A stretch of 64,000 nucleotides of DNA from Leptolyngbya sp. PCC 6406 (GTDB lineage Bacteria > Cyanobacteriota > Cyanobacteriia > Phormidesmidales > Phormidesmidaceae): contig NZ_KI913949.1 of assembly GCF_000332095.2 (NCBI RefSeq), forward strand, positions 4,301,048 through 4,365,047, in the 5' to 3' direction. Position 1 is the first letter of the stretch. Each line of letters opens with the position of its first letter. The position numbers and the translations under genes are program-made. This document shows positions 36,705 through 40,865 of this stretch, piece by piece. The notes beneath the pieces were generated by a model, which was not told the origin of the DNA, did not search any database, and saw only the letters and a program-made list of their open reading frames with translations.

Positions 36705-37169
36705 CTAGGACGAGGTAGTTTGAGCCGCTAGTAATTCCTTCAGTTTGGCCAGATCCTGAGCCCAACGGGGATCGGGTTGGGCAACCTCTGCATCCCCCAA
36801 GGATCCCTTACCACCACTACCCTTGCTAGCTCCACTGCCACTGCCTCCCTTCCCTTTGCGTCGGGCTGGGGTGACCGTTGCTGTCGGAGCGCTTTCGCCA
36901 GCCTCTTCCTTTGTCTTGCTGCGGGGCAATGCCTTTTCTACCTTGAGTTCACTTTCTTCTAGGCTAAAGCCGTTGAATTTTTCAACGATGACATCAGCCT
37001 GCTCATCCGTTTTAACGGTAACGAACCCAAAACCGCGACATTTGCCCGTTTTGCGATCGGAAATTAGCTTGACGGAAATAATTTCCTCTGTATGCTCCGA
37101 GAAAACGGATTCCAAAGATTCCCGTTCAATTTCCTTTGGGAGATTGCCAACATAAATCCGTACAGACAT
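36705..37169 (-). CDS. RRM-type RNA-binding protein (cyanobacterial Rbp)
   Basis: A 154-residue protein with one RRM. RNP2 is IYVGNLP (5-11) and RNP1 CRGFGFVTV (about 43-51); a Lys/Gly/Ser-rich linker (95-125) leads to a conserved tail DPRWAQDLAKLKELLAAQ. Cyanobacterial Rbp proteins bind mRNAs, some coding for photosynthetic proteins, and can be cold-induced. The 5' leader has a 7-bp hairpin ATTAAAC/GTTTAAT at 37200-37217, 31 bases from the ATG. Monocistronic. Confidence 0.93.
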   Translation of the reverse strand: MSVRIYVGNLPKEIERESLESVFSEHTEEIISVKLISDRKTGKCRGFGFVTVKTDEQADVIVEKFNGFSLEESELKVEKALPRSKTKEEAGESAPTATVTPARRKGKGGSGSGASKGSGGKGSLGDAEVAQPDPRWAQDLAKLKELLAAQTTSS

Positions 37170-37616: not shown

Positions 37617-37763
37617 CCATAAAAAACCAGCCAACCCTGGGGTTGACTGGCACAACTTGCTGTGTTGAGAGTAGGAGAACCGGATACCTAATACCCTTGA
37701 GGGCCGAGTGACTGAACTGAACCTGCTGTTGTCAGCCACGTTTAGGCGCACTGGAACTTCTTG
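37617..37763 (-). ncRNA. Candidate small RNA with promoter and terminator
   Basis: On the minus strand a -35 (TTGCAG) and -10 (TACAAT) 17 bases apart predict a start near 37763. The roughly 147-nt transcript includes an unpaired GTCACTCGG segment near the middle and ends in a GC-rich hairpin (37627-37650) followed by a T-run (37621-37626). No reading frame has a ribosome-binding site. It may be a Yfr2-type (Cyano-1) RNA, abundant in cyanobacteria, but I name the family only tentatively. Confidence 0.6.
37621..37650 (-). terminator. Terminator of the candidate small RNA
   Basis: CCAGCCAACCC pairs with GGGTTGACTGG with one mismatch; minus-strand T6 follows at 37626-37621. Confidence 0.85.
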
Positions 37764-37769
37764 TAAAGG

Positions 37770-37798
37770 ATTGTAACGCAGCCGCCCAGAAACTGCAA
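37770..37798 (-). promoter_or_regulatory. Sigma-70-type promoter of the candidate small RNA
   Basis: TTGCAG (37798-37793) and TACAAT (37775-37770) with exactly 17 bases between, close to TTGACA/TATAAT. Confidence 0.6.
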
Positions 37799-37889
37799 TG
37801 TTTCTTTACCTGATGCCTGTACCTAGGGACTGGGGACAATCAAAGCCAGATTCCTGGTTGTGGGACGGTTACAGTCCCTAGTACTGGCC

Positions 37890-38240: not shown

Positions 38241-40865
38241 CTAGCCTCCTCGGAGCAGAATGAGAAGTCCCCAGGTGCAACTGGTGAGGCCGATGACTAC
38301 GGACCAGATGGGATGGTTGGACCGTACCGCAGGCTTTCCAGGACGAATGAAACGATCTACATCTAGCCAGGGATCTGCCCCTCGACGCAGCCAGCCCGAT
38401 GCAGTGACGACCTGCCCCACGAGGCCGCTGGGGTGGCCGGGGTGGATAAGGAGGTTGCCGAAGGCCCCGAGGCTGGACAAAAAGTGTACCTTGATCATGC
38501 CTTGAGGGGTCTGGAGCCAAAAATCTTGGCAGAGCCAGTTGGCCATGCCAAGACGGCCTAGGAGCTTGCCCTGGAGCTGGATGGGAATACTGTCTGTGGG
38601 TAGGGCCATGGGGTTTTTGAGCGGTTGGTCAAGGGGGACGTTCTTGAGGCTGCTGGCGGGGGTAATGTCGGGAAAATATCGGTTGAGGCGCAGAAAAATA
38701 CCGATGCCCAGCCCCAAGTACAGGCTGCCCACCAGAATGCTGCGATCGCCGTAAAACCAGCTAATCTGCCAGACTCCAAGGGGATTCACTAATCCCCCCA
38801 CAAACCATAGAACCAAGGCCATCGTGGCTCCGATCAGTGGTCCCAGGTAGGGGCTGATTTGCAGCAGAAAGGGGAGCCAATAGGTCATGAAGTCTGACCG
38901 CGATCGCAGTTGTCGTTTAATAGGGCTATTGACCAAGGGCATCTCCGGTTCTAGCCCCCATTGACGGGCATAGCGGCTGAGGGTGACGATGCGATCGCCT
39001 AGGGGAGGATGGGCGCTGTTGAGGGCGAGCCAGTGGCGGTAGGAATTTTGCCAATCCCACCCCAACACCTGGGGGAGATTGGTATGGGGATACAGGCTAC
39101 CTGGGGTAAGGCCATGGCGGTACCCCAGGGGAGTAAGGATATCTACGCTTTCTACGAGGGGAGAGGTGTGTCCCACCGTGGCCATTGCTTCAGCCGTACC
39201 TACGGCCATTTTGACTAAGGCGCGTACTAGCGCGTTGGGATTGCCAGTCCATTCCACGGCCAGTCGATCGCTGCTGGTAACCCGAAGGCGGACCAGCGCC
39301 AAGGACGGTTTTCGCAGTAGCCAGTAGAGGCCGTAGGCTAGGGCAGAGAGTCCCGCCGCTGCGACTCGCAAGGGTTGAAAGGATTGGCGATCACCCCAGA
39401 TACTGAGTTGCCAATAGGCTTGGTATACCCCCTGCAAGATCAGCCCCAAGAGGGACATCAGGGGTAGGGTCCACTGAACCATATGGGCGAGTTCTTGGCC
39501 GTAGAGGGTGGCGAGTTCTGCGTCCTCTAGACGGTTGAGTAGTCCTTGGCTGACCACAATACGAGTGTTTCTCGGTAACCAACCATAGCTAAAGATCAGG
39601 GGCGTCTCTAGGGGCAGCGATCGCAGATTGGGCAAAACCCATCCCCGCTGTTGACAAATCCGCCGCATGAGGCGAACCGCCTCTGGGTGGCTCTCCTTGA
39701 GGGATTGGGTGGACAGATGGGTTTGGCCATAGACCCGTGCCAGGATCCAGTCCAGAATCCAGGGAGCAGCCAGGAGTAGGGCTCCTAGAACCACTGCGAG
39801 ACTGGGCGTATGATTCCGATAGATCCAGAACTCCATACGGGGCATGGGAAATAGCCAGTCTAGAAGGCGCAGCAGGCTGTTGGTCAGCTCTAAACCCCGG
39901 TACAGTAGCCAGCGCACTAGCACAAAGGTCAGGAGCAATGTCGCCGCTTGGGCCAGCCATAATACCCAGGGTTGGGTGGGCTGGTTCAGGGACCGCAATG
40001 TTTCTAGGCGTTCGGCGTTGCCCAGTTGCCAGGGTAGGCTGTCTGTCTTGACTGTTACTACTGCCGTTGGGGCTAGACTCTCCGGCACCGATGCCCTAGG
40101 GGCAGGGGCAGAGCGGGTGTTTCCCCTATCTTCCCTGGCTTCAGTGTCCCTAGAGCCAGGGCTACCCAGAGCCCGATCGGCGGTAGGGGCTGGGAGCCGT
40201 TCATCCCCTTGATTCAAGGTTTGGTAATGGAACAGGGAAGCCCCTATCGGGGCAGTTTCGGGGGGTGGGAGATGGGTCTCTGAGTCCCCGTCCGTGCCTA
40301 GGGCTGATGGTGCAGGATCTACGGTGGATGGCGGCTGTTGTGGAGGTAGGGAAACGGGGCCTGAGCTAGCCACATCAGGCGTCTCTGGGGCGACTATCTC
40401 GGATGTAAGGGGTGTGAATCCAGGGGTCTGGGACGGGATGGGGGTCGGTGTCAGGGGGCGAAAGCCTGTGGCATCGGCGGTCTTCCCATCGTTAGTTGCC
40501 GGGGCCGGAGGAGTCTCTGTCAGGGGTCGGAATCCACTGGCCTCGGTGGTGGGGACACCGGCGGATTTCGGTGTGGGCAGCGATGCCAGTTCCGCTAATA
40601 GTTTCTCTGCCCATTGACGCACCTGGGGTTGTTTATTCTGACGGAGTTCTTGGCAACGTGCGATCGCAGTAGTTATGTCCCCCAGTCCCAAATGGGCACG
40701 CACTAGAGCCATTTCCGCCTTGAGGCGTTGGGGAGTGGAGGCGTTGCCGTGGTGAGGCAGGGGGGAAAGAATTGCGATCGCGGCGGCGTAGTCTTGCCGC
40801 TTCAGGGCTGTTAACCCTGACTGGAGGAGGACTTCAGGAGAGGAGGAAGGAGGGGGGGAGGCCAT
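38241..40865 (-). CDS. Degenerate M48-family metallopeptidase homologue with TPR-like N-terminus
   Basis: An 874-residue membrane protein: N-terminal TPR-like helices (about 10-95), a Pro/Thr-rich linker (96-275), membrane helices (about 300-325, 345-375 and more later) and an M48/HtpX-like domain. The zinc motif HExxH reads QELAH (Q457-H461; Gln codon CAA) and the downstream Glu-Ala-Asp zinc motif reads SSD in VTSSDRLAVEWTGNP. Two of three zinc ligands are therefore absent, and peptidase activity is unlikely. HPPLGDR further on is retained. Function may be scaffolding in the thylakoid or plasma membrane. Confidence 0.82.
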   Translation of the reverse strand: MASPPPSSSPEVLLQSGLTALKRQDYAAAIAILSPLPHHGNASTPQRLKAEMALVRAHLGLGDITTAIARCQELRQNKQPQVRQWAEKLLAELASLPTPKSAGVPTTEASGFRPLTETPPAPATNDGKTADATGFRPLTPTPIPSQTPGFTPLTSEIVAPETPDVASSGPVSLPPQQPPSTVDPAPSALGTDGDSETHLPPPETAPIGASLFHYQTLNQGDERLPAPTADRALGSPGSRDTEAREDRGNTRSAPAPRASVPESLAPTAVVTVKTDSLPWQLGNAERLETLRSLNQPTQPWVLWLAQAATLLLTFVLVRWLLYRGLELTNSLLRLLDWLFPMPRMEFWIYRNHTPSLAVVLGALLLAAPWILDWILARVYGQTHLSTQSLKESHPEAVRLMRRICQQRGWVLPNLRSLPLETPLIFSYGWLPRNTRIVVSQGLLNRLEDAELATLYGQELAHMVQWTLPLMSLLGLILQGVYQAYWQLSIWGDRQSFQPLRVAAAGLSALAYGLYWLLRKPSLALVRLRVTSSDRLAVEWTGNPNALVRALVKMAVGTAEAMATVGHTSPLVESVDILTPLGYRHGLTPGSLYPHTNLPQVLGWDWQNSYRHWLALNSAHPPLGDRIVTLSRYARQWGLEPEMPLVNSPIKRQLRSRSDFMTYWLPFLLQISPYLGPLIGATMALVLWFVGGLVNPLGVWQISWFYGDRSILVGSLYLGLGIGIFLRLNRYFPDITPASSLKNVPLDQPLKNPMALPTDSIPIQLQGKLLGRLGMANWLCQDFWLQTPQGMIKVHFLSSLGAFGNLLIHPGHPSGLVGQVVTASGWLRRGADPWLDVDRFIRPGKPAVRSNHPIWSVVIGLTSCTWGLLILLRGG

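Follow-up and report, generated by a model that had tools for sequence, protein, structure and literature searches.

A small RNA gene of Leptolyngbya sp. PCC 6406 with a core complementary to psaL is probably an orthologue of PsrR1

What is encoded in the interval between an M48-family peptidase gene and the gene of an RRM RNA-binding protein in Leptolyngbya sp. PCC 6406? A preliminary description of the window (the whole 64-kb stretch of DNA that was analysed) had placed there an orphan small RNA bracketed by a promoter and a terminator of its own, and had likened it to Yfr2-type RNAs. We found that the interval holds a free-standing small-RNA gene on the minus strand, with its promoter at 37798-37770 and a predicted RNA at about 37763-37620. 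From sequence comparison we conclude, with a probability of roughly 0.87, that this element is an orthologue of PsrR1 and specifies a small RNA, about 144 nt long, that acts in trans. PsrR1 (also called SyR1) is a known cyanobacterial regulatory RNA that shuts off photosystem genes under strong light; it is a well-studied tie between light sensing and the translation of photosystem genes, described mainly in Synechocystis. The features of the locus, in the direction of transcription and with their basis in brackets, are as follows.

38241-40865, minus strand: M48-family peptidase gene, upstream neighbour (Pfam; in 30 of 30 loci)
37793-37798, minus strand: -35 element TTGCAG (sequence; TTGC aligned in 30 of 30 loci)
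37760-37777, minus strand: HLR1-like RpaB box GTTACAATCCTTTACAAG over the -10 element and the predicted start (one mismatch to KTTACAWWNNKTTACAWW; conserved)
37770-37775, minus strand: -10 element TACAAT after a 17-nt spacer (sequence; TTAC/TACA-type stretch conserved in relatives)
37620-37763, minus strand: predicted small RNA, about 144 nt (promoter, terminator, conservation)
37686-37747, minus strand: 5' folded domain, two hairpins inside a closing stem (consensus fold of 11 sequences, single folds)
37657-37681, minus strand: nearly invariant core GGTTCTCCTACTCTCAACACAGCAA, predicted target-binding region (21-mer identity; complementarity to the psaL and psbV leaders)
37669-37681, minus strand: block A GGUUCUCCUACUC, predicted to pair with the Shine-Dalgarno region (GAGTAGGAGA of psaL)
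37658-37667, minus strand: block B CAACACAGCA, predicted to pair with TGCTGTG(TTG) farther upstream in the psaL and psbV leaders
37620-37651, minus strand: intrinsic terminator with an 11-pair stem (37651-37626), a 4-nt loop and T6 (terminator scan; compensatory stem changes)
36705-37169, minus strand: gene of an RRM RNA-binding protein with a C-terminal PDPRWA motif (Rbp3/RbpG class), downstream neighbour (Pfam RRM_1)

Both ends of the RNA are predicted, the start being set 7 nt after the -10 element. The 17-bp promoter spacing reported earlier holds on the minus strand, from TTGCAG (37798-37793) to TACAAT (37775-37770). The word 'near-consensus' was too strong, since 8 of the 12 hexamer positions match the sigma-70 consensus and the promoter scanner does not list the site; we call a promoter here because its TTGC is conserved in 30/30 loci, not because of the consensus match. 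The strong terminator was confirmed as the 11-pair stem at 37651-37626 followed by T6. The terminator scan over 2.5 kb returned six listings against 2.8 expected, two of which are the stem of the element, the longest found, and this stem carries compensatory changes across the aligned sequences. These signals delimit a predicted free-standing RNA with an intrinsic terminator and a PsrR1-like size (about 144 nt predicted, PsrR1 being about 130 nt). Of the earlier 'about 147 nt without a gene', the absence of a conserved gene stands and the length is corrected to about 144 nt, itself a prediction. A 90-aa ORF that runs over the element (37751-37479) was rejected as coding: read in the frame that the core sets, it meets stops in 8 of 11 relatives and is open in three.

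The closing stem of the 5' domain is formed by GCCUAA (37747-37742) and UUAGGU (37691-37686), and the domain includes GTCACTCGG (37712-37704), the string that had been likened to Yfr2-type RNAs and taken as single-stranded. It is not wholly so: its TCAC is base-paired to GTGA/GTGG, and the stem so formed is kept in all 11 aligned sequences, the one of the window included, and also appears in single folds. The RNA as a whole folds modestly better than shuffles (z of -1.86 and -1.74); without the terminator, z is -0.07. A Yfr2 (Cyano-1, Rfam RF01701, likewise a small cyanobacterial RNA) identity, suggested by that string, is refuted at the level of covariance models. No Rfam family attains its cut-off in the whole 64-kb window and nothing touches the element at E values up to 10, which is the outcome of the Rfam/Infernal check that had been proposed for it. 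In addition, the one Cyano-1 match of the genome lies at another place (C1:3414976-3415045, 42.1 bits for a cut-off of 41) and part of GTCACTCGG belongs to a conserved stem; we give this identity practically no credence. A mir-1544 match at 37819-37887 (E 0.026) was dismissed as an inverted repeat, its score of 24 standing against a cut-off of 46. This place, just upstream of the promoter, contains an imperfect inverted repeat GTACCTAGGGACTG...CAGTCCCTAGTACTGG and then another copy of CTAGTACTGG.

How far does the RNA extend among cyanobacteria? A DNA search gave single matches in 33 of 59 genomes, its own included: 32 of the 36 genomes of the window's family (f1; no match in G006, G009, G019 and G023) and 1 of the 23 others (G052, of family f18). 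The 21-mer TCTCCTACTCTCAACACAGCA, directly before the terminator, is identical in 29/29 fetched f1 loci and shows three differences in the f18 locus; pairwise, the window RNA strongly resembles the f18 RNA (0 of 1000 shuffles as good). Other families have cores such as TTYTCCTCCCAACACAGCAAG. A first model, R1, was set aside for its implausible automatic fold. Model R2 was made of 24 rows from the 30 aligned loci, with L016, L017, L027 and L028 (misaligned terminators) and L022 and L026 excluded; in the phylum it matches 75 of the 386 genomes, including relatives beyond family f1. Ten of these genomes lie outside the class and are probably noise, as both of the two inspected were (L069, L070). 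Among 16 weak R2 places that were inspected, core, promoter and terminator were found together in nine; L064, L068-L071 and L073 were discarded as noise. Model R3, with 29 rows picked to spread over families and containing neither Synechocystis nor family f27, has matches in 155 of the class's 388 genomes, a single one in 146 and two or three in the other 9; at least one of the 155 is false: the match in G451 (25.3 bits) falls on a coding-like place (L095) that R2 also matches. A lack of conservation outside the strain had been named beforehand as one outcome that would refute the proposed RNA. Relatives were found in many cyanobacterial families, and this conservation far beyond the strain supports an orphan small RNA that has a promoter and a terminator of its own.

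We analysed the promoter for a site of the response regulator RpaB. In the source of the HLR1 consensus KTTACAWWNNKTTACAWW, a box over the start (-38 to +23) is in the repressing position and high light releases the genes concerned (PMC13421787). The promoter of the element is the sole place in 64 kb with an HLR1 site of at most one mismatch; when two mismatches are allowed the count is two sites against 0.45 expected, a number that 10 of 100 shuffles reach. A best site with at most three mismatches is present in 21/30 loci of the DNA search (2.7% of shuffles), in 19 of the 22 other-family loci used out of 26 (5.9% of shuffles) and in 19 of the 20 f27 loci used out of 23 (12.1% of shuffles). 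Relative to the predicted start, the 18-bp box would thus occupy the repressing position, as is characteristic of PsrR1.

We take the PsrR1 gene of Synechocystis to lie in the fabX-hoxH spacer. In Synechocystis-type genomes, the spacer between a ketoacyl-synthase gene (Pfam) and hoxH (PF00374) holds an RNA in G122, G431 and G455, while G070 and G126, of the Synechocystis genus, have a PsrR1 relative elsewhere, not beside hoxH. The G122 spacer RNA measures 138 nt from the -10 element to the end of the T-run, or 131 nt if it starts 7 nt downstream. The stretch ATTGAGTTCTCCT of the Synechocystis RNA lies opposite AGGAGAA(C/T)TCAAT, which forms the ribosome-binding site of psaL. For G122 the duplex spans 21 nt, made up of 18 Watson-Crick pairs, a single G-U pair and two mismatches, and its last position is the first base of the second codon. 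Published descriptions give 131 nt for PsrR1, with a start at 1671919 in Synechocystis sp. PCC 6803 (PMC6202907), 131 nt for a high-light-induced homologue in Synechococcus elongatus (557130-557000 in PCC 7942; PMC6091082), and a psaL pairing of 22 nt with two mismatches that reaches the start codon and one further nucleotide (PMC10989914). We read the spacer RNA as PsrR1 because its predicted length of 131 nt and its psaL pairing fit these descriptions.

Relatives of the Synechocystis spacer RNA occur in 23 of the 50 genomes of its family, f27. Compared pairwise, the window RNA is not significantly similar to the Synechocystis RNA (57/1000 shuffles as good) and weakly similar to the f32 RNA (41/1000) and to the f27 member L175 (16/1000). 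Run on 70 kb of f27 loci, R3 gives 20 matches, 15 of them on the PsrR1 site (15/23 loci), with low scores (15.5 bits at best); on the hoxH regions it matches weakly in L121 and L125 (9.2 bits, E 0.28, the best in 59 kb) and has no match in L122. Homology between the window RNA and Synechocystis PsrR1 therefore rests on intermediates and is supported, on comparison of the sequences, stepwise via f32 and f27. R2 reaches family f32 at E values of 1.5e-7 to 6.6e-6. The f32 RNA has in common with the Synechocystis RNA a stretch of 18-19 nt, TTGACATTGAGTT(T)CTCCT (0/1000 shuffles as good), and with the window type the CAGCAAG-plus-terminator end. Could the element instead be a high-light small RNA of separate origin, driven by an HLR1 promoter, whose fit to the ribosome-binding site of psaL arose by convergence? 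The direct likeness to Synechocystis PsrR1 is indeed short (GTTCTCCTA) and by itself not significant, as noted, but f32 joins both ends, the f27 members L175-L177 retain TTCTCCTACAACAGC, and the promoter layout and the position of the core before the terminator are identical. Such convergence appears very unlikely to us.

An orthologous PsrR1 would share with its Synechocystis counterpart the general build: a small RNA with a terminator, an HLR1-type box over the promoter and start, and, immediately before the terminator, an anti-Shine-Dalgarno core complementary to the ribosome-binding region of psaL. The two differ in the core itself (GGTTCTCCTACTCTCAACACAGCAA in the element, ATTGAGTTCTCCTA in Synechocystis), in the pairing with psaL, which involves two blocks here and one 22-nt stretch over the start codon in Synechocystis, and in location, the element being placed between the M48 peptidase and rbp3-class genes whereas Synechocystis PsrR1 is beside hoxH.

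The psaL gene of the window's genome (C1:4258775-4259206) has the leader ACTGCTGTGCTTCATTTGTGTGAGTAGGAGACCTACGATACATG, in which TGCTGTG is complementary to block B (CACAGCA) and GAGTAGGAGA to block A (TCTCCTACTC); the sequence thus presents the complementarity to the psaL ribosome-binding region that marks PsrR1. We computed duplex energies, which disregard target accessibility, between the core and 487 ORFs. With -40.1 kcal/mol, psaL ranks first (mean -21.5, sd 4.0). It is followed by a WecG-type glycosyltransferase (-34.9), no photosynthesis gene, by psbV (-34.8) and by a phycobilisome linker. The genome has 16 phycobilisome-domain matches. The ORFs were drawn from twenty 20-kb stretches, 16 phycobilisome loci, the psaL locus and the window, giving 507 entries of which 487 are unique, as some loci overlap; the psaL and phycobilisome loci were picked on purpose, and psbV came from the unselected stretches. 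Ten of the 507 entries match both blocks exactly over 6+6 nt or more, the longest match being in psbV (9+10) and the second longest in psaL (10+7), the next totalling 13. In the psbV leader (L272:18711-19223, minus strand), a perfect hairpin, GATAGC GA GCTATC, separates the two complementary blocks and could join them.

Is the psaL site retained where the RNA is? Both blocks are present, in the right order, in the psaL leaders of 12 of 15 family genomes having the RNA; the site is absent in G008 and G018, and in G012 it is visible by eye and failed the rule of the script. Where the DNA search had given no RNA match, none of the 13 leaders that could be read carries it. This control comprised 14 genomes, three of them of family f1 (G006, G009, G019), and the sole script pass among them, G048, was an artefact (misplaced leader, over 3 kb). 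Together with G005, whose gene is a long PsaL fusion, these three and the 15 make up the 19 family genomes with psaL loci. Moreover, RNAs and psaL leaders of the same genome pair better than re-paired ones: none of 5000 permutations was as good for 38 genomes, a comparison that relatedness helps, and 25 of 20000 were as good with one genome per family in 15 families. Re-pairing kept 38 of 44 genomes, no psaL start being found in G407, G165, G393 and G445 and no RNA locus being available for G007 and G015; G318, from the same set of 30 genomes as those four, was left out as a fusion. The script took an internal start codon of psaL in some genomes, with the leader still within the scored stretch. 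Own pairing is clear in f1, f27, f32 and f26, weak in f18 and f19, and was not seen in nine of the 15 families, so either psaL is not a target in all relatives or its site was missed. In family f26 (G254), the RNA stretch CATGTGTTCTTCC (L038) matches the psaL leader GGAGAAGAACACATG (L248) over the start codon, and the two sequences would represent a lineage-specific joint change of both partners. A second PsaL domain lies outside the window inside a 532-aa open frame (G000:C1:1535905-1536327), and many relatives have similar frames of about 480-600 aa that contain a PsaL domain.

From these features we infer that the RNA is expressed, repressed by RpaB and active in the control of its targets. 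At low light, RpaB bound to the HLR1 box over the -10 element and the start would keep the RNA off; at high light RpaB would leave and the RNA would be made. The core would then stop translation of psaL, the gene of photosystem I subunit XI, by pairing with its leader at the ribosome-binding site, with block A on the Shine-Dalgarno stretch and block B on a site about 10-15 nt farther upstream. A second target is likely to be psbV.

The RNA is located between the M48 peptidase gene and the RRM gene in 30/30 loci (29 of f1, one of f18). In other families 17 of 26 loci have the RRM neighbour, and in f27 none of 23; the loci span about 1.5 kb per side, which makes the misses soft. A PDPRWA string, allowing one substitution and any frame of the locus, is present in 30/30 and 17/26 loci, respectively. 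This motif is a mark of the type II Rbps, to which Rbp3 belongs (PMC9333190). Photosynthesis mRNAs are bound or supported by Rbp3 and by RbpG, its homologue in Anabaena (PMC11500504). Such a neighbour raises the question of whether the element is chiefly the leader of the rbp3-class mRNA, its terminator being promoter-proximal and read-through feeding the gene. An arrangement of this kind, the actuaton, in which a small-RNA cassette is fused to a downstream gene, is described for Synechocystis (PMC5386190). The two were compared by gene order: actuatons have the small RNA directly upstream of a gene on the same strand, and here the rbp3-class gene is the next one downstream, on the same strand, and adjoins the RNA at the frequencies just given. 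However, the terminator is strong and conserved, about 450 nt separate it from the gene, none of the 23 f27 loci has the RRM neighbour, and the most conserved part of the element, its core, is complementary to psaL in trans. We therefore consider a leader unlikely.

For a PsrR1 orthologue, the adjacency to the rbp3-class gene suggests a functional tie of the RNA to Rbp3-class proteins. In the examined literature that names both PsrR1 and Rbp3, Rbp3 does not come up in connection with such a linkage. The two-block pairing, psbV as a candidate target and the linkage to an Rbp3-class gene are apparently new, the novelty of the linkage and of psbV targeting being claimed only tentatively. Tentatively, and with the odds somewhat against it, PsrR1 in this lineage, perhaps ancestrally, might act on psaL and psbV in a two-handed manner, block A covering the Shine-Dalgarno stretch and block B serving as an upstream clamp, and might form a conserved pair with the Rbp3-class gene, RNA and protein acting on the same messages; the Synechocystis RNA would then be derived, having lost block B and the linkage. 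If the two-handed reading is true, subunits of photosystem I and photosystem II would come under one high-light RNA. If the paired-gene reading is true, the RNA would silence shared messages whose translation or localisation the Rbp3-class protein serves. With a wide aligned set of RNAs and their own psaL sites, the target pairing of PsrR1 and its evolution become testable.

A different small RNA of Synechocystis, on the dnaG side (L062, L078-L082), gave a weak R2 match (22.9 bits) and was rejected as PsrR1. This candidate (L103:8289-8381, minus strand, and the same L062 and L078-L082) is conserved in 5/5 genomes of the Synechocystis genus and sits between an S1-domain gene and dnaG (Pfam). 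It has two GTTACAA repeats in its promoter region, a ATTTCCTCA..CAACAACAACATTT core and a terminator.
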